NCBI GenBank assembly: GCA_927443345.1
Contig: CAKMKJ010000026.1
Span: forward strand, 1-43,811
DNA: 43,811 nt
Direction of reading: 5' to 3'
From: an uncultured Anaerolineaceae bacterium
Lineage (GTDB): Bacteria; Chloroflexota; Anaerolineae; Anaerolineales; Anaerolineaceae
Shown in pieces: positions 1,796 through 16,095 of this stretch. A program made the translations under genes and the position numbers. The stretch's first letter is position 1. The number at the start of each line of letters is the position of its first letter. Under the pieces are notes generated by a model, which saw only the letters and a list, made by a program, of their open reading frames with translations, ran no database searches and was not told the DNA's origin.

Positions 1796-3904
1796 TTACA
1801 TTTTGTCACTTTCACTGGTAAATATCGCGACCCGGTTTCTACCCAAATTCTTGGCTTTGTACATGGCAGTGTCGGCATTTTTTAGCAATTCATCAAGGTC
1901 TTTTATCTGCAATTGATAGTCTGCAACACCAAAGCTCGCAGTGATATTCATTTTTAGTTTGCACTTTAACTCACTATTTTCGGTAATTCTTTGTCTGAGC
2001 CGTTCAGCCAATCTCTGAGCATCTTCAATTTTGGTGTTAGGAAGCAAAATTCCGAATTCTTCACCCCCCAGACGTCCCACTACATCCACCTCACGTACTC
2101 CTTCAACCAACGTTGCAGCCACACATTGTAGCGCATAGTCCCCACTGTCATGACCCAAAGTATCGTTGATTAGTTTAAAACGATCAATATCCAACATAAT
2201 AATTGTGAGGGGTAAATGATAGCGCCTCGCGCGGATGATCTCTTCAGCCCCTTTCATGAAAAATGCACGGCGATTATAAATCTTCGTTAACTCATCGGTC
2301 AAGGCAAGTACTTCTAGTTTTTCGTTTAACATCTGGATTTCTTCATCGGCTTGTTTTTCTACAATTACAAACCAGGCAATATTGGCAATATTGGTAACGA
2401 GTTCAACATCTTTTTCATGATAATTAGCTGGCTTGTTGCCGATGCCAAGGACAGCTTTAACAACATTATCCCGCATGATTGGAACTACCAATTCGCGCAC
2501 AACTTGAGCGTGTCCTTCTGGCATCCCCTTTTTGTCAATCATTGATTCATAATCATTATGAATAACAGGCCTTTTCAACCTAACAGCGTCACACCAAACC
2601 CCCGCTTTATTAACCGGATAATGCATGCCTTCGCCTTCAGCTTTGCAAAAATTTTCTTTGGTTTGAGTAGACCAAGCCTGCAATTTTAAGGAATTCGTTT
2701 TTGCGTCAAGAAAATGGAAAAAACTAATTTTGCTATTGGTTAAACTTTCTGTCTCATCGAGGACTTTTTGCATTAATTCGCCAGATGTGTGTGATACAGA
2801 ATACTCCCATAAAGTTATCTGCATTTTGAGTATGGCTTCGATTTGCTTTTTTTCAGTGATATCAAGAAGCATAGACAATACACAATCATCGTCGCCAATT
2901 TTTATAATCTCTCCAGAAAATGAGAGCGTCACAATTTCGCCAGATTTTACTTTTCCTAAAAATTCAAAATCCCTAACAGTACCTTCAGTTCTTAACAATT
3001 GAATCATGCGGTCACGTTCAGTGATATCCACCCACATTTCCAGAGACCGTAAATTGGATGACAATAACTCCTCTCGCGAGTAACCGGTTAAGTTTTGAAA
3101 TTGTTCATTGATATCAATAAACTTCCCATCTGCAACGCGTGAAATTAAAACCGATGCAGGGCTGGCATGAAAAGCTTTGTAGAATTTTTCCTGGCTGGAA
3201 TGCAAATCTATTTCTATGTGCTGCCTTTTAATAATGTCTTCTTCTAAAATGTGGACCAGACGTTTATTTACCATTAAGAAAAAATAAAAAGTTGTGGATA
3301 AATATATTATTTGAAAGCCAAGAAAAATGTATGCTTCCAAATTTCCCGTTTTTATGAGGTCATTTCCCATCGGGACTATAAAAGCATAAACTATGCGTCC
3401 AACCCCAAGAAATAAAAATAAGGAACTAATTATTCGTAGTTCTTTAACAAACAAATGTATAAACGGATCTTTTATAGTTGAAAGCATCCAAACCATTTGA
3501 CTTACATAGATGACAATCAAACTTGAAAAAAGAATTGTTCGGATCTGAAGATCTGGATGAACGTAAGTAAACGAGGCTTGTAAGGCAACATAGATGCCCA
3601 GTAGAATATAGTTATGAATTTGATTAAATTTACGTTGAAGAAAATCAGATAATCCTATAAAGAGGAACAATGTTCCTGCAGCCAATAGAACGTTAGCCAC
3701 CAAAATGGATAGAAAATCTGAAACAATTCCCCGCAATGAAAGCAGTAGCACACCCACAAAATTTAATGCAAAACTGGACATACAAAAGCCAAGGCCAGAA
3801 AACCTCATGCGATTCTGGCGCCACAGGCTGAAGGTGACTAATGCACAAATGAGATTACAAAGGGTGTAACTTAGTAAAACGGTTCTGATGTCCAGGTTCA
3901 GCAT
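1796..3904 (-). CDS. Membrane diguanylate cyclase, 7TM-PAS-GAF-GGDEF
   Basis: A 702-residue membrane sensor predicted to make cyclic di-GMP. About seven hydrophobic segments fill residues 8-215. A PAS domain follows at about 240-355 (KAFHASPASVLISR, NLTGYSREEL, LLDITEKK), then a GAF-type domain at about 370-525 (FFHFLDAKTNSLKLQAWS, MRDNVVKAVLGIGNK). The C-terminal 170 residues are a GGDEF domain with an intact GGEEF active-site loop. RxxD (REVD) lies five residues before GGEEF, the position of the product-inhibition I-site, so activity is probably feedback-controlled. The domain begins LALTDELTKIYNRRAF and contains IIMLDIDRFKLINDTLGH, both normal for active cyclases. The signal sensed by the membrane or GAF part is unknown. 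No EAL or PilZ protein is nearby. Confidence 0.92.
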   Translation of the reverse strand: MLNLDIRTVLLSYTLCNLICALVTFSLWRQNRMRFSGLGFCMSSFALNFVGVLLLSLRGIVSDFLSILVANVLLAAGTLFLFIGLSDFLQRKFNQIHNYILLGIYVALQASFTYVHPDLQIRTILFSSLIVIYVSQMVWMLSTIKDPFIHLFVKELRIISSLFLFLGVGRIVYAFIVPMGNDLIKTGNLEAYIFLGFQIIYLSTTFYFFLMVNKRLVHILEEDIIKRQHIEIDLHSSQEKFYKAFHASPASVLISRVADGKFIDINEQFQNLTGYSREELLSSNLRSLEMWVDITERDRMIQLLRTEGTVRDFEFLGKVKSGEIVTLSFSGEIIKIGDDDCVLSMLLDITEKKQIEAILKMQITLWEYSVSHTSGELMQKVLDETESLTNSKISFFHFLDAKTNSLKLQAWSTQTKENFCKAEGEGMHYPVNKAGVWCDAVRLKRPVIHNDYESMIDKKGMPEGHAQVVRELVVPIMRDNVVKAVLGIGNKPANYHEKDVELVTNIANIAWFVIVEKQADEEIQMLNEKLEVLALTDELTKIYNRRAFFMKGAEEIIRARRYHLPLTIIMLDIDRFKLINDTLGHDSGDYALQCVAATLVEGVREVDVVGRLGGEEFGILLPNTKIEDAQRLAERLRQRITENSELKCKLKMNITASFGVADYQLQIKDLDELLKNADTAMYKAKNLGRNRVAIFTSESDKM

Positions 3905-9205: not shown

Positions 9206-9562
9206 ATGAAAATCATTGCATTTATAGGGGCGGGTTTGCTTATCTTGTTCGGTGCCTTAATGGCTATTGGAGCAACCGATCCATACAATGGACAAATTGG
9301 ATGGCTTCCTGTAGGGTTGGTGTTGATTGGGGTTGGTTTAGTGATCATTTTCTTTGCCGCCCGCCGCAAACAAGTTGCACCGACAACCAATGTAACCCTT
9401 AATGTTGATTTACCCGGTAATGTTGCCATGGATGCAATCAAATGCAAATCATGCGGCGGTGTTTTGGCTGCTGAAAACATTACCATGGTTCAAGGCGCCC
9501 CCATGGTGACCTGTCCATACTGCCATACTGTTTACCAAATGACTGAAGAACCTAAATGGTAA
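9206..9562 (+). CDS. Small two-TM membrane protein with C-terminal zinc ribbon
   Basis: A 118-residue protein of unknown function. Two hydrophobic helices lie at residues 2-22 and 33-52, separated by a short polar loop. A basic stretch (ARRKQ) puts the C-terminus in the cytoplasm by the positive-inside rule. The C-terminal half is a zinc ribbon with CKSC at 80-83 and CPYC at 103-106. GGAGG four bases before the ATG supports the start. It is the first gene of a plus-strand operon, 28 bases before the large DUF2207-like protein, and the shared membrane location suggests the two work together. Similar membrane zinc-ribbon proteins often sit beside membrane-quality or signalling genes, but no function can be assigned here. 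Confidence 0.8.
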   Translation: MKIIAFIGAGLLILFGALMAIGATDPYNGQIGWLPVGLVLIGVGLVIIFFAARRKQVAPTTNVTLNVDLPGNVAMDAIKCKSCGGVLAAENITMVQGAPMVTCPYCHTVYQMTEEPKW

Positions 9563-9590
9563 TTGCACTCGATTTTTTGGGAGGGTTGTT

Positions 9591-11321
9591 ATGAGAATTT
9601 TGAGATATATTTGCGTCTTCCTGATCTTGATCTTGCTGGCTGGAAGTGCTTCTCCAGTTTATGCACAAGATTACCGGTTCCAGGTTCCTGAACAGGCCGT
9701 TGTCGTGTCGGTCAACAACGACGGTTCGATTAATATTGATTACACCATGACCTTTCTCAACGATTCTGGTGCTCACGCCATTGATATCGTGGATATTGGC
9801 TTGCCCAATTACGATTACGAATTGCGCAACATCACCGCTGAGGTTGATGGGGTTAAAATAACCCGTATCACCAATTCTGATGTCGTTTCGCCGGGGATAT
9901 CGCTTTACCTTGAATCCAATGAGATCCCTGCTGGCGGAAGAGGCACAGTACATGCCTACATCACAAACGTCAGGACAGTCATCTATCCCGCCACTGAAAC
10001 AGAAACTGAGGACTATGCCAGTTTAAAATTTTCACCCAACTGGTATGACCGTCAATATTGCTACGGTGATACCAATTATCAATTTACTTTCTTGCTTCCC
10101 CCTGGAATAAAAGACGGCGAATCCCGTTATTACATCCCTGATAGATGGCCCAACTCAGAGGTTGTGCCTGAATCGATGATCACCGCAGAAGACCGCATTT
10201 TCTATACCTGGGTCGAAGATACAGCCAATACCTATACCCAATACACTTTTGGCACCAGCTTCCCTGCCCGCTACCTGGCTGAAGGTGCCGTAGTTCAAGA
10301 AGTATATGTACCGCCCTCTTCTTCCGGTGGAAACAGCACCAGCTTCAACCTCGACAGCCTTTGCCCCCTCATCTTCTGCTTCGGGTTTCTAGGGTTCACT
10401 GCCTTGATAATCTATTCAGCCACCATTGGCGCGAAAAAACGCAAGATGGCTTATCTGCCTCCTAAAATTTCTATGGAAGGCCACGGCGTAAAACGTGGAT
10501 TGACCTCGGTTGAAGCAGCCGTTTTGATGGAGCAACCCATGGATAAAATCTTTACCATGGTGCTCTTTGGTTTGCTAAAAAAGAACGCGGCTGAAGTCGT
10601 CAACAAAGATCCATTGGATATCAAAGCTTCAACACCGGTTCCCCCCGAATTATATGGTTATGAAACTGATTTTCTGGCGGCTTTTACTGAAAAAGCGTCT
10701 GCTCCGCGTAAGAAATTGCTGCAAACCATGATGGTCAACCTGATCAAGAGTGTCGGTGAGAAAATGAAAGGGTTCAGCCGCAAAGAAACCCTCGCTTTTT
10801 ATGAAGACATCATGAGACGCGCCTGGACACAAGTCGAAACTGCCGGAACCCCGGAAGTCAAAGCCCAGGTCTACGAAGAGGTCATGGATTGGACCATGCT
10901 GGATAAGAAGTATGAAGATCGCACCCAAAATGTGTTTAGTGGCCCATCGGTCATTCCAGCCCCATCATGGTGGTGGCGCTATGACCCCACTTTTATGCGG
11001 CCTGTAATCAATACAAGCACCATAGGCGGGGCAGCACCTCCTCCTCCGCTCTCGACTTCTGGAGGACAATCCATCTCGATGCCGACTATGCCGGGTTCAG
11101 CCTTCGCGGCATCTGTGGTTGGTAGTGTGTCAAACTTCTCATCAAAGGTGATGGGCGGTCTCTCTGGCTTCACCAGCGGCGTTACCAATGTGACCAATCC
11201 GCCTCCTCCACCTTCCACTTATCGCAGTTCTGGCGGTGGCGGTTCGAGTGGTGGTCGCTCATGCGCCTGTGCCTGTGCTTGTGCGGGTTGTGCCTGCGCC
11301 TGTGCCGGCGGTGGACGTTAG
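9591..11321 (+). CDS. DUF2207-like membrane protein with a C-terminal Cys-Ala repeat tail
   Basis: A 576-residue protein. A signal peptide (RYICVFLILILLAGSASPVYA) is followed by an extracytoplasmic region of about 220 residues with beta-strand-like composition, a Ser/Gly linker, a membrane helix near 260-283 (CPLIFCFGFLGFTALIIYSA), a basic stop-transfer KKRK, and a cytoplasmic helical domain (LTSVEAAVLMEQPMDKIFTMVLFGLLKK) as in DUF2207-type proteins. A low-complexity region rich in Pro, Ser and Gly follows, containing WWWRYDP and two poly-Pro runs. The last residues are Gly/Ser followed by seven cysteines alternating with alanine and then GGGR. It is encoded 12 bases upstream of a PqqD-fused radical SAM enzyme. 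The tail is therefore a candidate modification site. Cys-rich low-complexity tails also occur in other bacterial membrane families (for example TIGR04222-type proteins), and I cannot tell which model fits best. Confidence 0.85.
   Translation: MRILRYICVFLILILLAGSASPVYAQDYRFQVPEQAVVVSVNNDGSINIDYTMTFLNDSGAHAIDIVDIGLPNYDYELRNITAEVDGVKITRITNSDVVSPGISLYLESNEIPAGGRGTVHAYITNVRTVIYPATETETEDYASLKFSPNWYDRQYCYGDTNYQFTFLLPPGIKDGESRYYIPDRWPNSEVVPESMITAEDRIFYTWVEDTANTYTQYTFGTSFPARYLAEGAVVQEVYVPPSSSGGNSTSFNLDSLCPLIFCFGFLGFTALIIYSATIGAKKRKMAYLPPKISMEGHGVKRGLTSVEAAVLMEQPMDKIFTMVLFGLLKKNAAEVVNKDPLDIKASTPVPPELYGYETDFLAAFTEKASAPRKKLLQTMMVNLIKSVGEKMKGFSRKETLAFYEDIMRRAWTQVETAGTPEVKAQVYEEVMDWTMLDKKYEDRTQNVFSGPSVIPAPSWWWRYDPTFMRPVINTSTIGGAAPPPPLSTSGGQSISMPTMPGSAFAASVVGSVSNFSSKVMGGLSGFTSGVTNVTNPPPPPSTYRSSGGGGSSGGRSCACACACAGCACACAGGGR
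11262..11318 (+). other. Cys-Ala repeat tail, candidate modification substrate
   Basis: These codons give four Cys-Ala pairs, a Gly, three more Cys-Ala pairs, then Gly-Gly-Gly-Arg and stop. All seven cysteines fall within 14 residues. Codons alternate among TGC/TGT and GCC/GCT/GCG, so the amino-acid pattern rather than simple DNA slippage seems to be kept. Confidence 0.8.
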
Positions 11322-11333
11322 CTTGCTTACCTG

Positions 11334-12668
11334 ATGAATCTGCTTAACTATTTTTCTTCCTCTAAAACCAAAACACCAGCAGTGGAAATCCCTGCTGCTG
11401 GTGTGTACCACTTTCTGCGTCAAACAGAAGTGGAAAAATCCAGGCTTCATCTGAGGTTGGATAAAGACGGTTCAGGGTTATTGATCATCAACGCCAACCG
11501 TGTTTATCAACTCAATCCAACCGCAGCGGCCATGATGTTTTTAGCCCTCAATGAAATACCTTCTACGCAAGCCGTAGGTAAACTTCACAAGAAATTCAAC
11601 GCACCCAAAGATCTTCTCGTATCAGATTACGGCATCATTCAAGATCAGTTACTTTCACTAATCTCAAATGAATCCTGCCCAATCTGCGAACTTGATCTTG
11701 AAACAACAGCCCCTTTTTCGTCCCGCCCTTCCGCGCCTTATCGCATGGATCTGGCTGTCACTTATCGATGCAACAACGCCTGCGCACACTGCTACAATGG
11801 ACGTCCGCGTAACTACCCGGAATTGTCAACTGAAGAATGGTTCAAGATTTTGGATGATCTGTGGAAGATTGGCATTCCGCATATTGTGTTCACCGGCGGC
11901 GAGCCCACGTTGCGTGATGATTTGCCTGACTTGATCCGCCATGCTGAAGCCAACGGACAGATCACCGGCATCAACACCAACGGAAGAAAACTCAAAGACA
12001 AAGCCTATCTGCAAAAGCTGGTGGATGCCGGTATGGATCACGTTCAAATCACTTTTGAATCGCACATCCCCGAAATTCACGATCAAATGGTATGTCATAC
12101 AGGTGCATGGCAAGAAACTGTTGAAGGGCTGAAGAATACCGTTGAGTCAAACCTGTATGTAATGACCAATACCACCATGCTGACGCATAACAAAGCCACC
12201 ATCCCTGACACACTTGAATTTCTTGGAAAATTGGGTTTAAAAACTATTGGGCTTAATGCGCTGATCTATTCAGGTCACGGCTCTACAGTTGGAACCGGGT
12301 TGTCTGAAAGTGAGCTGCAACCGATTCTCGAAACTGCGCAAGTCATCACTGACAAATACCAACAACGTTTGATATGGTACACCCCGACTCAATACTGCAA
12401 TTTTGATCCGGTGCAGATGGGGTTGGGCGTTAAAGGCTGCACAGCTGCGTTGTATAACATGTGCGTTGAACCCAATGGCGACGTCATCCCATGCCAGTCG
12501 TATTATCAATCGCTTGGGAATATTTTAACTCAACCTTGGCACGCGATTTGGAATCATGAACTGGCAGTATCACTGCGTGAACGCCACAACCTGCCAGAAA
12601 AATGTAATGATTGTACGTTATTAAGTGAATGCGGCGGCGGATGTCCGCTGGCTGCTAAAGTGAATTAA
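11334..12668 (+). CDS. PqqD-fused radical SAM/SPASM maturase
   Basis: A 444-residue radical SAM enzyme. Residues ~35-115 form a PqqD-like peptide-recognition domain (RLHLRLDKDGSGLLIINANR, QLNPTAAAMM). The radical SAM core starts at MDLAVTYRC, with the [4Fe-4S] CxxxCxxC motif at C146, C150 and C153 and the SAM-binding GGEPT near residue 190. The C-terminal SPASM domain has cysteines in GCTAALYNMC, GDVIPC and CNDC...CGGGC for auxiliary clusters. Family knowledge: PqqD-SPASM fusions usually make bonds in ribosomally made peptides or proteins, such as thioethers or carbon crosslinks. The start is the ATG at 11334, 12 bases after the Cys-tail gene; its ribosome binding site is weak, suggesting translation follows from the upstream gene. 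All catalytic cysteines are intact. The substrate is inferred only from proximity. Confidence 0.92.
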   Translation: MNLLNYFSSSKTKTPAVEIPAAGVYHFLRQTEVEKSRLHLRLDKDGSGLLIINANRVYQLNPTAAAMMFLALNEIPSTQAVGKLHKKFNAPKDLLVSDYGIIQDQLLSLISNESCPICELDLETTAPFSSRPSAPYRMDLAVTYRCNNACAHCYNGRPRNYPELSTEEWFKILDDLWKIGIPHIVFTGGEPTLRDDLPDLIRHAEANGQITGINTNGRKLKDKAYLQKLVDAGMDHVQITFESHIPEIHDQMVCHTGAWQETVEGLKNTVESNLYVMTNTTMLTHNKATIPDTLEFLGKLGLKTIGLNALIYSGHGSTVGTGLSESELQPILETAQVITDKYQQRLIWYTPTQYCNFDPVQMGLGVKGCTAALYNMCVEPNGDVIPCQSYYQSLGNILTQPWHAIWNHELAVSLRERHNLPEKCNDCTLLSECGGGCPLAAKVN

Positions 12669-12692
12669 AACCAGTTCTTCCCGGAGGGAAAA

Positions 12693-13868
12693 ATGAAAGC
12701 CAGGATTAAGACATTTATCAACAATATTCTCTTTACACCTAAACCGATTCCTGCTGGAAACTATCAGTCCATGCTCAAACTGGAGTCTGGAACCACCTAC
12801 CGGCTGCATCTACGTATTGATGAAAAAGGCACAGGACTAATGATCATCAATGCCAGTACCATTTTGCATCTGAATGCAACGGCAGTGGAATACGCCTATC
12901 ATTTGATCAAAGAAACCCCCCTCGAGACTATTTCAGCAGAAATGATTCATCGTTATCGGGTGTCATCGGATGAAGCCATTTCAGATTTTCATGATTTCAA
13001 AGAACGCCTTGAGACGCTGGTATCCACCCCCGACCTTGACCCGGAAACCTTTTTGGATATGGAACGTTTTGATGCACACAATGAAAACTTGTCTGCACCC
13101 ATGCGCCTGGATTGCGCGCTCACCTATCAGGTAGTTGAAGGTTCCAACAGCGTCTATGCGCCAAATGATCGCGATAAACGCACATTGGATAAGGAAGAAT
13201 GGAAGCAGGTGCTTAAAAACGCCTGGGAAGCTGGCATCCCTCATGTGATTTTCACAGGTGGCGAACCAACGTTGCGTCCGGATATCCCGGAACTGGTGCA
13301 ATTTACCCAGGAACTTGGCCAGGTCAGCGGATTAATCACCGATGGCAGCCGATTAACTGATAAAGATTATCTTCACCAATTACTCGAGGCTGGTCTTGAT
13401 CATCTGATGATCGTGCTCAATCCATTCAATGACCAATCCTGGGAAGCGATCAGAGATGCGATTACCGAAGACATCTTCTTGACCGTTCATCTCACGTTAA
13501 ACAACCGCAACAAACCGGATTTCGAAAAAACACTTGAAAAACTTGCTAACATGCAGGTTAAATCACTTTCATTAAGTGCAGACTCGCAGGAATTATGGAA
13601 ATCACTACCTCAATTTACTCAAAAAGCGGTTGAGGTTGGTTTCTCACTAGTCTGGGATTTACCCGTCCCCTATTCATCATTCAATCCGATTGCCCTCGAA
13701 TTGGAAATGGGAGAAGTGCGTACAGATGGCGCTGGCTCAAGCTGGCTTTATGTAGAACCTGACGGTGATGTCTTGGCAGGCCAGGGTAAGGAAGTAGTTC
13801 TTGGCAACTTCCTGACTGACCCTTTTAACAGAATTTGGGCTCAGGCCAAAATTTCGCGCAATGGATAA
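12693..13868 (+). CDS. Degenerate paralogue of the radical SAM maturase, no cluster-binding cysteines
   Basis: A 391-residue protein that aligns along its length with the preceding enzyme: the same PqqD-like N-terminus (YRLHLRIDEKGTGLMIINAS) and the same core (GIPHVIFTGGEPTLRPDIPEL). At the CxxxCxxC site the spacing is identical, but the three cysteines are V147, S151 and V154. The SPASM cysteines are also gone: EPDGDVLAGQGKEVVLGN replaces the Cys-bearing version, and the protein stops before the last cysteine cluster. It therefore cannot bind the catalytic cluster by this motif. The reading frame is intact and has a good ribosome binding site (GGAGG, nine bases upstream), so it is a maintained pseudoenzyme rather than a pseudogene. 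A scaffold or substrate-binding partner of its active twin is the likely role. Confidence 0.9.
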   Translation: MKARIKTFINNILFTPKPIPAGNYQSMLKLESGTTYRLHLRIDEKGTGLMIINASTILHLNATAVEYAYHLIKETPLETISAEMIHRYRVSSDEAISDFHDFKERLETLVSTPDLDPETFLDMERFDAHNENLSAPMRLDCALTYQVVEGSNSVYAPNDRDKRTLDKEEWKQVLKNAWEAGIPHVIFTGGEPTLRPDIPELVQFTQELGQVSGLITDGSRLTDKDYLHQLLEAGLDHLMIVLNPFNDQSWEAIRDAITEDIFLTVHLTLNNRNKPDFEKTLEKLANMQVKSLSLSADSQELWKSLPQFTQKAVEVGFSLVWDLPVPYSSFNPIALELEMGEVRTDGAGSSWLYVEPDGDVLAGQGKEVVLGNFLTDPFNRIWAQAKISRNG

Positions 13869-14613
13869 TTTGGATTGGCACGAGCGGTTCTCTGTTCAGG
13901 CAGAATGGACAAAACAACTGCGCCAATACCTTTATCAACAAGTTGGAATCAATGAAAAGTCCCGCGTCCTTGAAGTTGGATGCGGGACAGGTGTTATCAC
14001 CTCGGAATTAAAGGAATTCAACAAAATTCAGGCAGCGGGTATCGACATACAGCTTGACCGGGTGGCAACCGCCAAGAAAATTGACCCCACCACCCATTAT
14101 GGATGTGCAGATGTAAACCACCTTCCTTTTACCAACAATCATTTTGATTTTGTTGTGGCACACTACTTATTTTTGTGGCTGCGCGATCCTGTTAAGGCGC
14201 TTAACGAAATCAAACGTGTTCTCACACCTGGCGGGTTTATGGTTGCTCTGGCCGAACCCGATTATCTGGCACGGATAGATAACCCTCAGGAATTATGGCA
14301 ATTGGGTGAACTGCAAACCAAAGCGCTTATCCTACAGGGCGCAAATCCAATGGCCGGACGGCAACTTTCCACTCAACTCCATCAAGCTGGTTTCGCAGCA
14401 ATCCAATATGGCATTTCAGGGTTTCAGGAGGAATCTGATAAAATTCCACCATGGTTTGATTCTGAATGGAAAATTTTGGAGAATGACCTTGAGCTTATTT
14501 CTTCTAAACAAGAATTGGATAAATTACGGCAACTCGATTTGGCTGCCCAACAAAAAGGTTCAAGGATCAGGTGGGTGCCCACTTTTTATGCTTATGGACG
14601 AAAAGATTACTAA
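13861..14613 (+). CDS. Class I SAM-dependent methyltransferase
   Basis: A 250-residue cytosolic methyltransferase with a standard Rossmann core: motif I VLEVGCGTGVITSEL (about 36-50), acidic residue in GIDIQLDRV, motif III-IV region FDFVVAHYLFLWLRDP, and RVLTPGGFMVALAEPDY. Members like this methylate small molecules, lipids or peptides; the substrate cannot be read. Its ATG overlaps the stop of the dead radical SAM paralogue (ATGGATAA, eight bases), which indicates translational coupling and a shared task. As last gene of the operon it could modify the same target as the radical SAM enzyme. A strong terminator follows 65 bases later. Confidence 0.88.
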   Translation: MDNLDWHERFSVQAEWTKQLRQYLYQQVGINEKSRVLEVGCGTGVITSELKEFNKIQAAGIDIQLDRVATAKKIDPTTHYGCADVNHLPFTNNHFDFVVAHYLFLWLRDPVKALNEIKRVLTPGGFMVALAEPDYLARIDNPQELWQLGELQTKALILQGANPMAGRQLSTQLHQAGFAAIQYGISGFQEESDKIPPWFDSEWKILENDLELISSKQELDKLRQLDLAAQQKGSRIRWVPTFYAYGRKDY

Positions 14614-14678: not shown

Positions 14679-14735
14679 AGGTCAGAGAACACATTATTGC
14701 TCACATTGCGAATGTTCTCTGACCTCTTTTTTTAT
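14679..14735 (+). terminator. Strong hairpin between the radical SAM operon and the MFS gene
   Basis: AGGTCAGAGAACA and TGTTCTCTGACCT form a perfect 13-bp stem with a loop of about 22 bases, followed by seven T. It ends only 20 bases before the MFS start codon. It either closes the upstream operon or acts as a leaky terminator or attenuator for the transporter gene. Confidence 0.9.
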
Positions 14736-14754: not shown

Positions 14755-16095
14755 ATGAAAGGTGAACAGAAGAAATCAGGCCGCACTTTATTTGCCCTTG
14801 GACTTGGAAATCTGGTAGATTCAGGTGAAAGCCAATCCATGGGGGTATTAACACCTATTATCGTTCAGATTTTTGGGGTCAATTTGGGAATGATCGGCCT
14901 TATGGAAACCCTGCGCAGCATCACTCAAACAGTCAGCGCGCCGTTTTGGGGCTACGCCTCTGATAAATGGTCTCGCAAGAAGGTTTTGTTCTTTGGCACC
15001 GGTATCTGGGGCATCTGGACTATTCTGGTAGGGTTGATGCCGTCGTTCACCGGACTGATGATCATCCGCATCATCTCTGGTCTCGGTCTGGGTTGTCTGA
15101 TGCCCGCGACTTTTTCGCTGCTGGGCGATCATTTTTCTCAAGACAAACGTGGACGCGCCTTGGGTATGGTCAGTCTGATTGGCTTATTGGGCACGGTCAT
15201 TGGCGTCATCGCACTTGGATTCGTTGCCACTGCGGATTTATGGAAATGGGGTTTTATAGGTCTCGGTATTGCCAGCATACTGACCGGATTCGTGATTTTG
15301 CTGTTTGTTGAAGAACCCACACGCGGATCCTCCGAACCGGAACTTCAGGGCATTATAACCAAGGCAGATGAAACCCGCTACAAGATCAATGTCAAGGACA
15401 TGATTGACACTTTAAAAATCCCCACCATTTGGGCAGCCATCATTCAAGGCGTCACAGGGTCCATGCCATGGGTAGTGATGGGCGTGTTCCTTATTAACTG
15501 GATGGTAACAGAATTAGGTTTCTCCAATTCTATCTCATTGAATGATCCCAAAGGCAGTGCACCAATTGTGTTCGCATTTGTGGTTATCGGTGCAGCCATT
15601 AGTAATTTTGTGGGTGGCATCATCGGCGACTATGCAGAAAAGAAAAATGCCAAGTACGGCCGCACCATCATTGGACAGTTCTCAGTCTTCGTGGGTGTAC
15701 CGCTGATGTTTGTGCTGATCAAATACGGTCCGCAGATGAGTTTTGGGCTCTTTTTGGGCTGGGCGTTTATGACCGCGCTATTGGTTGGCTGGCCAGGAAC
15801 TGGTGCCAAACAACCCATGATGCAGGCCGTGGTACCACCTGAAAGTCGCTCCAGCGCATATGCAATGGTCAACCTGATTGAGGGCGGTTTGTCGGCCTTT
15901 TCAAGCGTAATTGCGGGCACGTTGGCTAGCGTGATCGGCTTGACCAATGCCCTGCTGTGGACGATTCCATTTCCATGGATCATTTGCGGTATCGGTTTCA
16001 CCCTCTTCTATTTCACCTATCCCAAAGACGCCGCCAAGATTCGCACACAGATGGCAGAACGGCGCGAAGAATTGATCAAGGCGCATCAAGCCTAG
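14755..16095 (+). CDS. MFS transporter
   Basis: A 446-residue major facilitator superfamily protein with about 12 membrane helices. Family marks include the loop 2-3 motif GYASDKWSRKKVLFFG, RIISGLGLGCLMPATFSLLGDHF in helix 4-5, and KRGRALGMVSLIG. The second half contains GWPGTGAKQPMMQAVVPPESRSSAYAMVN. Both termini are polar and cytoplasmic. The start ATG has GGGAGGG four bases upstream. Distance from known drug or sugar branches is too large to name a substrate; a Spinster-like or lipid/drug-type exporter is possible. It follows the radical SAM operon after a terminator hairpin, so co-expression depends on read-through or on a promoter before the hairpin. Export of a product of that operon is possible but unproved. 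Confidence 0.88.
   Translation: MKGEQKKSGRTLFALGLGNLVDSGESQSMGVLTPIIVQIFGVNLGMIGLMETLRSITQTVSAPFWGYASDKWSRKKVLFFGTGIWGIWTILVGLMPSFTGLMIIRIISGLGLGCLMPATFSLLGDHFSQDKRGRALGMVSLIGLLGTVIGVIALGFVATADLWKWGFIGLGIASILTGFVILLFVEEPTRGSSEPELQGIITKADETRYKINVKDMIDTLKIPTIWAAIIQGVTGSMPWVVMGVFLINWMVTELGFSNSISLNDPKGSAPIVFAFVVIGAAISNFVGGIIGDYAEKKNAKYGRTIIGQFSVFVGVPLMFVLIKYGPQMSFGLFLGWAFMTALLVGWPGTGAKQPMMQAVVPPESRSSAYAMVNLIEGGLSAFSSVIAGTLASVIGLTNALLWTIPFPWIICGIGFTLFYFTYPKDAAKIRTQMAERREELIKAHQA

Follow-up and report, generated by a model that had tools for sequence, protein, structure and literature searches.

The window, by which we mean the whole 43,811-nucleotide stretch analysed, contains a five-gene operon on the plus strand (Table 1). 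As the original prediction stated, the first four genes lie 28, 12 and 24 bases apart, the last two overlap by 8 bases, and the operon ends at a strong hairpin (-22.7 kcal/mol, z -4.35), with equal stability in none of 200 shuffles. This hairpin is not among the sites of a simple terminator scan, and the promoter and terminator scans return site numbers that are not above those of shuffles. The product of gene 1 carries a C-terminal zinc-ribbon-like CxxC...CPYC motif and ends in EEPKW, and all its matches to zinc-ribbon profiles fall below the cut-off. A gene 1 homologue is found in 15 of 18 well-flanked loci that encode a Cys-Ala (CA) tail.

Table 1. Features of the operon and its 3' flank in the window.
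Feature	Position	Strand	Remark
Small membrane protein gene (gene 1)	9206..9562	+	conserved partner upstream of the tail gene
Tail-bearing membrane protein gene (gene 2), 576 aa	9591..11321	+	
Membrane helix of gene 2, residues 254-286	10350..10448	+	KKRK stretch after the helix
Conserved tail CACACACAGCACACAGGGR, residues 558-576, proposed modification site	11262..11318	+	C-terminal end of gene 2
Radical SAM/SPASM enzyme with N-terminal PqqD-like peptide-recognition region (gene 3)	11334..12668	+	
PqqD-like region of gene 3, residues 22-111, conserved HLR motif	11397..11666	+	alignment, Pfam, model
CxxxCxxC radical SAM cluster motif of gene 3 (Cys 146, 150, 153)	11769..11792	+	alignment
Dead twin of the radical SAM enzyme (gene 4)	12693..13868	+	
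Class I SAM-dependent methyltransferase (gene 5)	13861..14613	+	profile matches
Terminator-like hairpin, T run after	14679..14725	+	beyond the operon end

Gene 2 encodes, in order, a signal peptide, a beta-rich outer domain, one membrane helix, a winged-helix-like region, a Gly/Ser linker and the CA tail. The 20 residues past the helix include five Lys or Arg and no acidic residue. Because a KKRK stretch follows the helix, the C-terminal half is predicted to be cytosolic, and the winged-helix-like region and the tail should face the cytosol. The protein had been called DUF2207-like, but gene 2 has no Pfam match at E 0.01 and shows nothing of note in NCBIfam, so the label rests on a sister protein with a different tail of CHSAC repeats (L053), which matches DUF2207 (PF09972) above the cut-off (28.8 versus 24.4 bits). 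None of the 32 diverse CA-tail proteins scanned, gene 2 included, matches PF09972 or PF20990, whereas three ordinary DUF2207 proteins whose Gly tails contain no Cys (L066, L055 at 950-2827, and L267) give strong matches; the single Pfam match among the 32 is to an amino-acid permease model, in one protein (E 0.0032). In fold comparison the outer domain is similar to ribophorin I and to M1-aminopeptidase domains, a result that says little on function.

The C-terminal end of gene 2 is SCACACACAGCACACAGGGR. The tail follows the pattern (CA)nG(CA)nGGGR at the extreme C-terminus, behind a variable Gly/Ser linker, and is present in 24 of 24 close homologues whose C-terminus is complete. This count includes gene 2 of the window and omits two sequences, one masked in L045 and one fragmentary in L050. 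The homologues were found with the whole protein as query, of which the tail is only 19 of 576 residues. The majority-residue fraction reaches 0.94 in the tail versus 0.50 in the outer domain, 0.57 in the membrane and cytosolic part and 0.51 in the Gly/Ser linker. The type I tails from the pattern scan are encoded by distinct DNA in 68 of 68 cases with a third-position agreement of only 42%, which indicates that selection acts on the tail peptide. An origin of the tail from chance or a nucleotide repeat is ruled out by the same variation of third codon positions.

Gene 3 contains a radical SAM domain (100 bits) and a SPASM domain (43 bits) in Pfam. The CxxxCxxC motif and the auxiliary-cluster cysteines of the SPASM domain (Cys 369, 387, 424, 427, 433 and 437) are invariant in an alignment of 20 family members, all of which match PF13186. 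The PqqD fusion that had been proposed is weak in the Pfam match of gene 3 itself (E 0.18), but the family and the structure model agree with it: 12 of the 20 members have a PqqD match (best 7e-7), and the model folds the region into four strands followed by three helices. The closest solved structures to the model are SkfB, SuiB, CteB and PqqE, and the profile match to SkfB (E 7e-32) spans profile positions 44-405. Among the best 25 of 77 NCBIfam matches, none reaches its curated cut-off (top score 134.9 bits, cut-off 500), which holds for the named radical SAM systems NirJ2, PqqE, AhbD, mycofactocin, SkfB and others. Gene 4 retains the radical SAM match (54.8 bits), the GGE and the PqqD-like region, while the CxxxCxxC motif and the SPASM cysteines are gone; it has one Cys in 391 residues versus 14 in gene 3.

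A scan for the tail pattern with one genome per species yields at least 117 stretches. Among the 117 listed, CA tails occur in many bacterial phyla and in Asgard, Thermoplasmatota and Methanomassiliicoccales archaea, and the carriers include the cultured anaerobes Bellilinea caldifistulae GOMI-1 (L155) and Levilinea saccharolytica KIBI-1 (L166). Ornatilinea apprima P3M-1 and Leptolinea sp. HRD-7 are further named carriers. The enzyme family is encoded in the tail's own piece (up to 8 kb) at 92 of these 117 loci, although six of the 92 enzyme frames run off the end of the piece. For 23 of the remaining 25 it is encoded in another part of the genome, three of these matches being partial (L094, L148 and L169). 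Homologues spread widely without a radical SAM enzyme were looked for and not found: the enzyme is missing in two of the 117 listed (L140 on a 6.5-kb contig and L162 on a 4.3-kb contig).

The two genome sets show the same association. In the class set of 199 genomes, 40 have both partners, 1 the tail family only and 12 the enzyme only (Fisher 5e-30); the corresponding numbers for 119 Asgard genomes are 31, 1 and 14 (Fisher 1e-16), both values ignoring shared ancestry. The single class exception (G025, L066) has a gene 2 match with a Cys-free Gly tail and no enzyme, and the enzyme was not found in one tail-bearing Asgard genome (G241). Conversely, the tail was not found in four enzyme-bearing class genomes (G005, G157, G006 and G128), a fifth (G192) has a dead twin only, and 6 of the 14 enzyme-only Asgard genomes lack a tail within the stretch fetched. 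The pairing is kept where tail and enzyme lie on separate contigs (L101, L150; G100, G173). The homologue search supports the core claim of the original prediction, and the presence of the enzyme in 40 of 41 and 31 of 32 tail-family genomes, together with the separate-contig pairs, is strong genetic support for the tail as the substrate; the chemistry we infer.

The sister CHSAC tail is carried by Chloroflexota and Asgard archaea. The same enzyme family lies in the stretch of the CHSAC tail in 35 of 38 cases, 34 of them at a distance of no more than 900 bases; the other three genomes encode it at another place. These counts take in all 38 stretches, of which 20 were retrieved by way of the tail and 18 by way of a tail-or-enzyme hit of the enzyme search or both, so that adjacency in the latter 18 is partly by choice. 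Tail and enzyme share a strand in the Chloroflexota loci and lie on opposite strands in 13 of 13 Asgard loci. Strict specificity between tail type and enzyme is ruled out: in several Chloroflexota (L092, L103, L100 and L165), a genome that encodes a type I-like tail and a type A dead twin has an enzyme of the type II clade; the placement took in all 19 distant enzymes. The enzyme of L164 also belongs to the type II clade, and its tail gene is cut by the piece's edge.

The two remaining genes are distributed differently. The methyltransferase goes with the CA tail only, being found in 16 of 18 well-flanked CA-tail loci versus 0 of 38 CHSAC stretches; this tail-type specificity favours the proposed finishing role, for which the chemistry is predicted. 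The dead twin is missing from the archaeal CA-tail loci (0 of 19) and the CHSAC stretches (0 of 38), which rules out a universal dead twin and the proposal that it always co-occurs with the tail. A scaffold role is nevertheless plausible, because the twin keeps the peptide-binding region and the dead copies seem to have arisen twice. A single origin of the dead twins is disfavoured, although not strongly (AU p 0.027).

SkfB and CteB are sactipeptide maturases that form thioether links from Cys sulphur to carbon, and SuiB is the streptide maturase. Gene 3, of which they are the best structural matches, shares with all three the domain order PqqD-like, radical SAM, SPASM, and with SkfB and CteB a Cys-containing peptide as the likely substrate. 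In contrast to their short peptides, the proposed substrate here is the retained tail of a 576-residue membrane protein, and the operon of gene 3 also encodes a dead twin and a methyltransferase. The ACGX system (TIGR04340), whose peptide has Ala-Cys-Gly repeats, likewise has a radical SAM/SPASM enzyme whose target is an Ala-Cys repeat, and the CHSAC enzyme of L053 scores 104.6 bits against it; however, this is far below the cut-off of 400 and the peptide is different. We know of no membrane scaffold for ACGX. TIGR04347, a pseudo-SAM/SPASM family, is by name an inactive radical SAM homologue and a precedent for dead copies, but it is a separate family and the score lies far below its cut-off. 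No literature on this tail and enzyme system was found among open-licence papers.

The original prediction regarded a 576-residue membrane protein as an unusual radical SAM substrate, which is fair, but a parallel, the nearest precedent, has already been proposed. According to PMC12452194, TIGR04222 membrane proteins with Cys-rich C-terminal regions are candidate substrates of MNIO enzymes, and 490 of 1372 TIGR04222 genomes lack an MNIO. Both systems combine a membrane protein, a Cys-rich low-complexity C-terminal tail and an adjoining RiPP enzyme. The present system differs in its radical SAM enzyme, its nearly invariant tail, which is predicted to be cytosolic rather than periplasmic, its extension to archaea and its tighter association of tail and enzyme. 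Gene 2 has no match to TIGR04222, the CHSAC protein L053 scores just below the cut-off (39.1 versus 43 bits), and Pfam and NCBIfam find no MNIO enzyme among the five operon genes.

We consider it probable that the operon produces a membrane protein together with the enzymes that mature the C-terminal tail of this protein. The radical SAM enzyme family most likely modifies the CA tail, and the modification is probably RiPP-like, placing thioethers on a retained, cytosol-facing tail of a membrane protein. The gene 2 protein would be held by its membrane helix, and its C-terminal half would lie on the cytosolic side. Gene 3 would bind it through the PqqD-like region, as domain and model suggest, and modify the tail cysteines, most likely by linking Cys sulphur to carbon; the link type, taken by analogy from SkfB and CteB as structural relatives of gene 3, is chemically the weakest step. 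The dead twin, a peptide-binding region without a cluster, may help present the tail, and the methyltransferase, given its tail-type specificity, may then methylate the modified CA tail or the C-terminal end. The tail would stay attached and form a compact, Cys-derived module in the cytosol. This module would probably respond to metals or to redox state and be coupled to the outer domain, which is the weakest step on function.

It is unlikely that the tail is an unmodified, metallothionein-like metal-binding segment and that the enzyme acts elsewhere, for example on a small cofactor of the same membrane protein. CxC runs do bind metals unmodified in known proteins, and the haem-pathway names NirJ2, AhbC and AhbD stand beside PqqE among the highest NCBIfam scores of gene 3. 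However, the haem-pathway scores reach about a fifth to a quarter of the family cut-offs, the PqqD-like region of the enzyme implies a peptide substrate, and two different Cys tails on related scaffolds are each paired with one enzyme family. An assignment of gene 3 to the haem pathway was rejected, since all top names, PqqE included, score at most a third of their cut-offs and the closest folds are those of peptide maturases. An oversized RiPP precursor, modified at the tail and then cleaved within the Gly/Ser linker to release a small peptide, is quite improbable: the variable linker before a fixed end resembles leader-core precursors, but it would be odd for a leader to be a membrane protein of 540 residues that includes a folded outer domain, and the predicted position of the tail is cytosolic. 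That the radical SAM genes and the membrane protein gene merely form a co-inherited neighbourhood without functional contact is very hard to credit, for although most pairs are adjacent and linkage with joint transfer could maintain them, pairs survive on different contigs and the gene orientation of CHSAC loci differs between Chloroflexota and Asgard.

Maturation of the tail thus being the preferred reading, a broader form of it is offered tentatively: these would be membrane proteins, shared by Bacteria and Archaea, with a permanent, genetically encoded C-terminal peptide cofactor built by a radical SAM enzyme, in which a cytosol-facing, cross-linked and methylated Cys-Ala module serves as a metal or redox site coupled to an outer sensing domain, and inactive radical SAM copies have on two occasions been recruited to present the tail. 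Most known radical SAM maturases act on short peptides. A near-invariant tail that stays on a membrane protein and keeps company with a single enzyme family in lineages as distant as Chloroflexota and Asgard archaea suggests a modification that is widespread and possibly old, and which has no name in the family libraries searched (Pfam and NCBIfam). The tail peptide is short and defined and its carriers include named strains, which makes the main claim directly testable, and the two lines of dead copies provide a natural experiment on the role of an inactive radical SAM partner.

The original prediction gave the five genes, their spacings and the terminal hairpin correctly. Gene 1 encodes a short membrane protein whose end is zinc-ribbon-like (domain matches below cut-off). 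In the structure model of gene 2 (pLDDT 80.5, pTM 0.48), a signal peptide and a β-rich outer domain precede a single membrane helix (residues 254–286), a cytosolic helical part, and then a disordered linker and tail from residue 544. On our own reading of the strand and helix order, residues ~306–346 may form a winged-helix-like stretch. The 20 residues past the membrane helix contain five Lys/Arg and no acidic residue, which by the positive-inside rule places the tail, (CA)nG(CA)nGGGR, in the cytosol. A crude hydropathy scan of 32 gene 2 family members gives a similar topology for many; for some, a different last segment is chosen or the tail itself is scored as hydrophobic. Gene 3 encodes a radical SAM/SPASM protein (the enzyme), gene 4 its homologue with one Cys (the dead twin), and gene 5 a methyltransferase.

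Coordinates of the operon and of individual genes in the stretches compared
Stretch	Position	Strand	Feature
Window	9206-14613	+	Five-gene operon
Window	14755-16095		Major-facilitator transporter, beyond the hairpin downstream of the operon
L184	3577-5007		Radical SAM gene broken into two frames; possible frameshift or assembly error
L055	950-2827		Ordinary DUF2207 protein, Cys-free Gly tail, ~5 kb from CHSAC tail gene
L267	12083-13972		Ordinary DUF2207 protein, Cys-free Gly tail, ~5 kb from CHSAC tail gene
L264 (genome G192)	2598-3743		Dead twin

When all of gene 2 (the tail being only 19 of its 576 residues) was used as query against 199 genomes of the window's class, 41 gave a homologue. Among close homologues whose C-terminus is intact, the window counted, all 24 finish in the tail (L045, a masked copy, and L050, a fragment, were left out; L052 aligns over little beyond its end). 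The majority-residue fraction is 0.94 in the tail, 0.50 in the outer domain, 0.57 in the membrane and cytosolic part, 0.44 before the linker and 0.51 in the Gly/Ser linker. The 68 type I tails from a pattern scan all differ in DNA sequence; codon positions 1 and 2 hardly vary, and identity at position 3 is 42%. Ten residues of this set are fixed by the search pattern and are no evidence; the evidence comes from the whole-protein set. These sequences indicate that selection acts on the tail as a peptide.

The pattern scan, applied to one genome per species, yielded at least 117 stretches, and the true number is higher. Among the matches listed are bacteria (Chloroflexota, Armatimonadota, Planctomycetota, Aminicenantes, Zixibacteria, Coatesbacteria, Edwardsbacteria, Sabulitectum/Fermentibacteria/Hyd24-12, Acidobacteriota, Hydrogenedentota and Zipacnadia) and archaea (Heimdall-, Hod-, Loki-, Sigyn- and Hermodarchaeota, Thermoplasmatota and Methanomassiliicoccales). 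The gene 2 profile matched 108 of the 112 tail-bearing frames read in the 117 stretches listed, and the remaining four are fragments of 56–88 aa; therefore, one scaffold carries the tail in this set. Distant gene 2 homologues from Chloroflexota and Asgard archaea bear a sister tail built of CHSAC repeats and closed by a short end (VSRF, VGRF or VSGGFR, for example). The CHSAC protein of L053 matches DUF2207 above cut-off, which ties gene 2 to the DUF2207 superfamily. The ordinary DUF2207 proteins of L055 and L267 provide a useful internal control.

The enzyme lies within the same piece (up to 8 kb) in 92 of the 117 tail stretches listed, including six in which its frame is cut at the piece's edge and CxxxCxxC is not visible. 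Whole-genome searches of the other 25 turned up matches (E ≤ 1e-30) in 23, three of them partial (L094, L148, L169), and none in L140 and L162, with contigs of 6.5 and 4.3 kb. In the class set, 40 of the 41 genomes that have a gene 2 homologue also have the enzyme (E 1e-40 or better); the homologue in the exception, G025, is a DUF2207 protein whose Gly tail contains no Cys. Among 119 Asgard genomes the corresponding count is 31 of 32, and G241 gave no enzyme match though a tail fragment is present. Fisher tests (p = 5e-30 and 1e-16 for the class and Asgard sets) take no account of ancestry and serve only as a guide. The enzyme without a gene 2 match occurs in 12 class genomes: by inspection, a CHSAC tail gene adjoins it in seven (G007, G036, G068, G126, G145, G162, G168). 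Of the other five, G005 and G157 are 85% and 68% complete, the enzyme of G006 and G128 sits at or close to the end of a contig, and G192 has the dead twin alone. In the 14 enzyme-only Asgard genomes, the stretch around the enzyme holds a CHSAC tail protein in eight and none in six (L288, L289, L290, L292, L297, L299). In G100 and G173, the tail and gene 1 share one contig and the enzyme and methyltransferase another; L101 and L150 show no enzyme match on the tail's contig and one elsewhere in the genome, as do L129 and L178, but with tail genes at contig ends. Such pairs on different contigs, all from draft assemblies, speak for a tie that goes beyond neighbourhood.

The sister tail shows the same partnership, with an enzyme of the gene 3 family in 35 of 38 CHSAC stretches, less than 900 bases away in 34 and at 6.3 kb in L260; some stretches were chosen around the enzyme, so adjacency is partly by choice. 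The enzyme is adjacent in 13 of the 15 chosen around the gene 2 match (L053–L065, L067, L068). In L067, L068 and L261 the stretch ends or shows no enzyme, which is found elsewhere in the genome. The two genes share a strand in all 22 of the Chloroflexota stretches among these 35 and lie on opposite strands in all 13 of the Asgard ones.

The structure closest to the gene 3 model (pLDDT 85.9) is SkfB (TM 0.65 by query length, 0.74 by target), followed by SuiB, CteB and PqqE. The family profile also matches SkfB (7e-32, profile positions 44–405, including part of the N-terminal region), and no named NCBIfam system was reached by gene 3, among the 25 of 77 matches listed, or by the CHSAC enzyme of L053. 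Our best guess from these matches is that gene 3 may work like a thioether-forming peptide maturase.

Where the tail's end is flanked by at least 2.5 kb upstream and at least 4 kb downstream, the methyltransferase (METHYLTRANSFERASE) occurs in 16 of 18 CA-tail loci (all but L109 and L132). Of the 19 archaeal CA-tail loci 13 have it, and of the 38 CHSAC stretches none does, a pattern that fits action on the CA tail.

Dead copies in the 117 stretches listed, many of them cut, are of type A in 43 and type B in eight. All 17 type A copies examined have lost CxxxCxxC and the SPASM Cys pattern and kept the GGE and HLR motifs; one, L113, scores higher against the active-enzyme profile. In type B copies CxxxCxxC and GGE are missing and HLR is kept (5/5), and four of five keep a SPASM-type Cys pattern. 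Each type forms its own strongly supported group in the tree, and that of type B falls in a fork shared with the L158, L179 and L092 enzymes; a single grouping of both is rejected (AU p 0.027), a moderate result on long branches. In L045 and L046 the tail protein is present as two tandem copies, and an active enzyme and a type B-kind dead copy lie upstream. In four Chloroflexota genomes (L092, L103, L100, L165), the tail is type I-like, the dead twin is of type A and the enzyme belongs to the type II clade, which indicates that the twin can outlast its first active partner. In L092, L103, L164 (tail gene cut at the piece's edge) and the L100 and L165 genomes, the dead twin directly follows the tail gene, and the active type II clade enzyme lies apart, on the opposite strand ~2–4 kb on or farther, as though it had taken the place of the original one. 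The original prediction saw the twin as a scaffold; against the simple version of this role, it is absent from 19 of 19 archaeal CA-tail loci and 38 of 38 CHSAC stretches. G192 (97% complete), where no active enzyme or tail gene was found, also counts against it; its dead twin may be a remnant or have a separate role. In the same-order relatives L032–L035, extra genes open the operon between enzyme and dead twin or after the dead twin. We read these as a putative ~335-aa protein with a C-terminal membrane helix, a probable small PAS-like protein (L031, L034) and, further on, a phosphatase-like candidate (L032, L033).

Searches of open-licence papers found no description of the CA-tail/radical SAM system. 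The nearest printed idea concerns TIGR04222 membrane proteins, whose Cys-rich C-terminal regions, predicted to be periplasmic, are proposed as MNIO enzyme substrates, with a loose tie (490 of 1372 genomes without the enzyme; PMC12452194). The two systems differ in enzyme class, tail, membrane side and tightness of the tie. Tail chemistry, the dead twin's role and the purpose of the tail are points on which we infer. The central proposal, that the tail is the enzyme's substrate, stands, stronger and wider than could be known at the outset.
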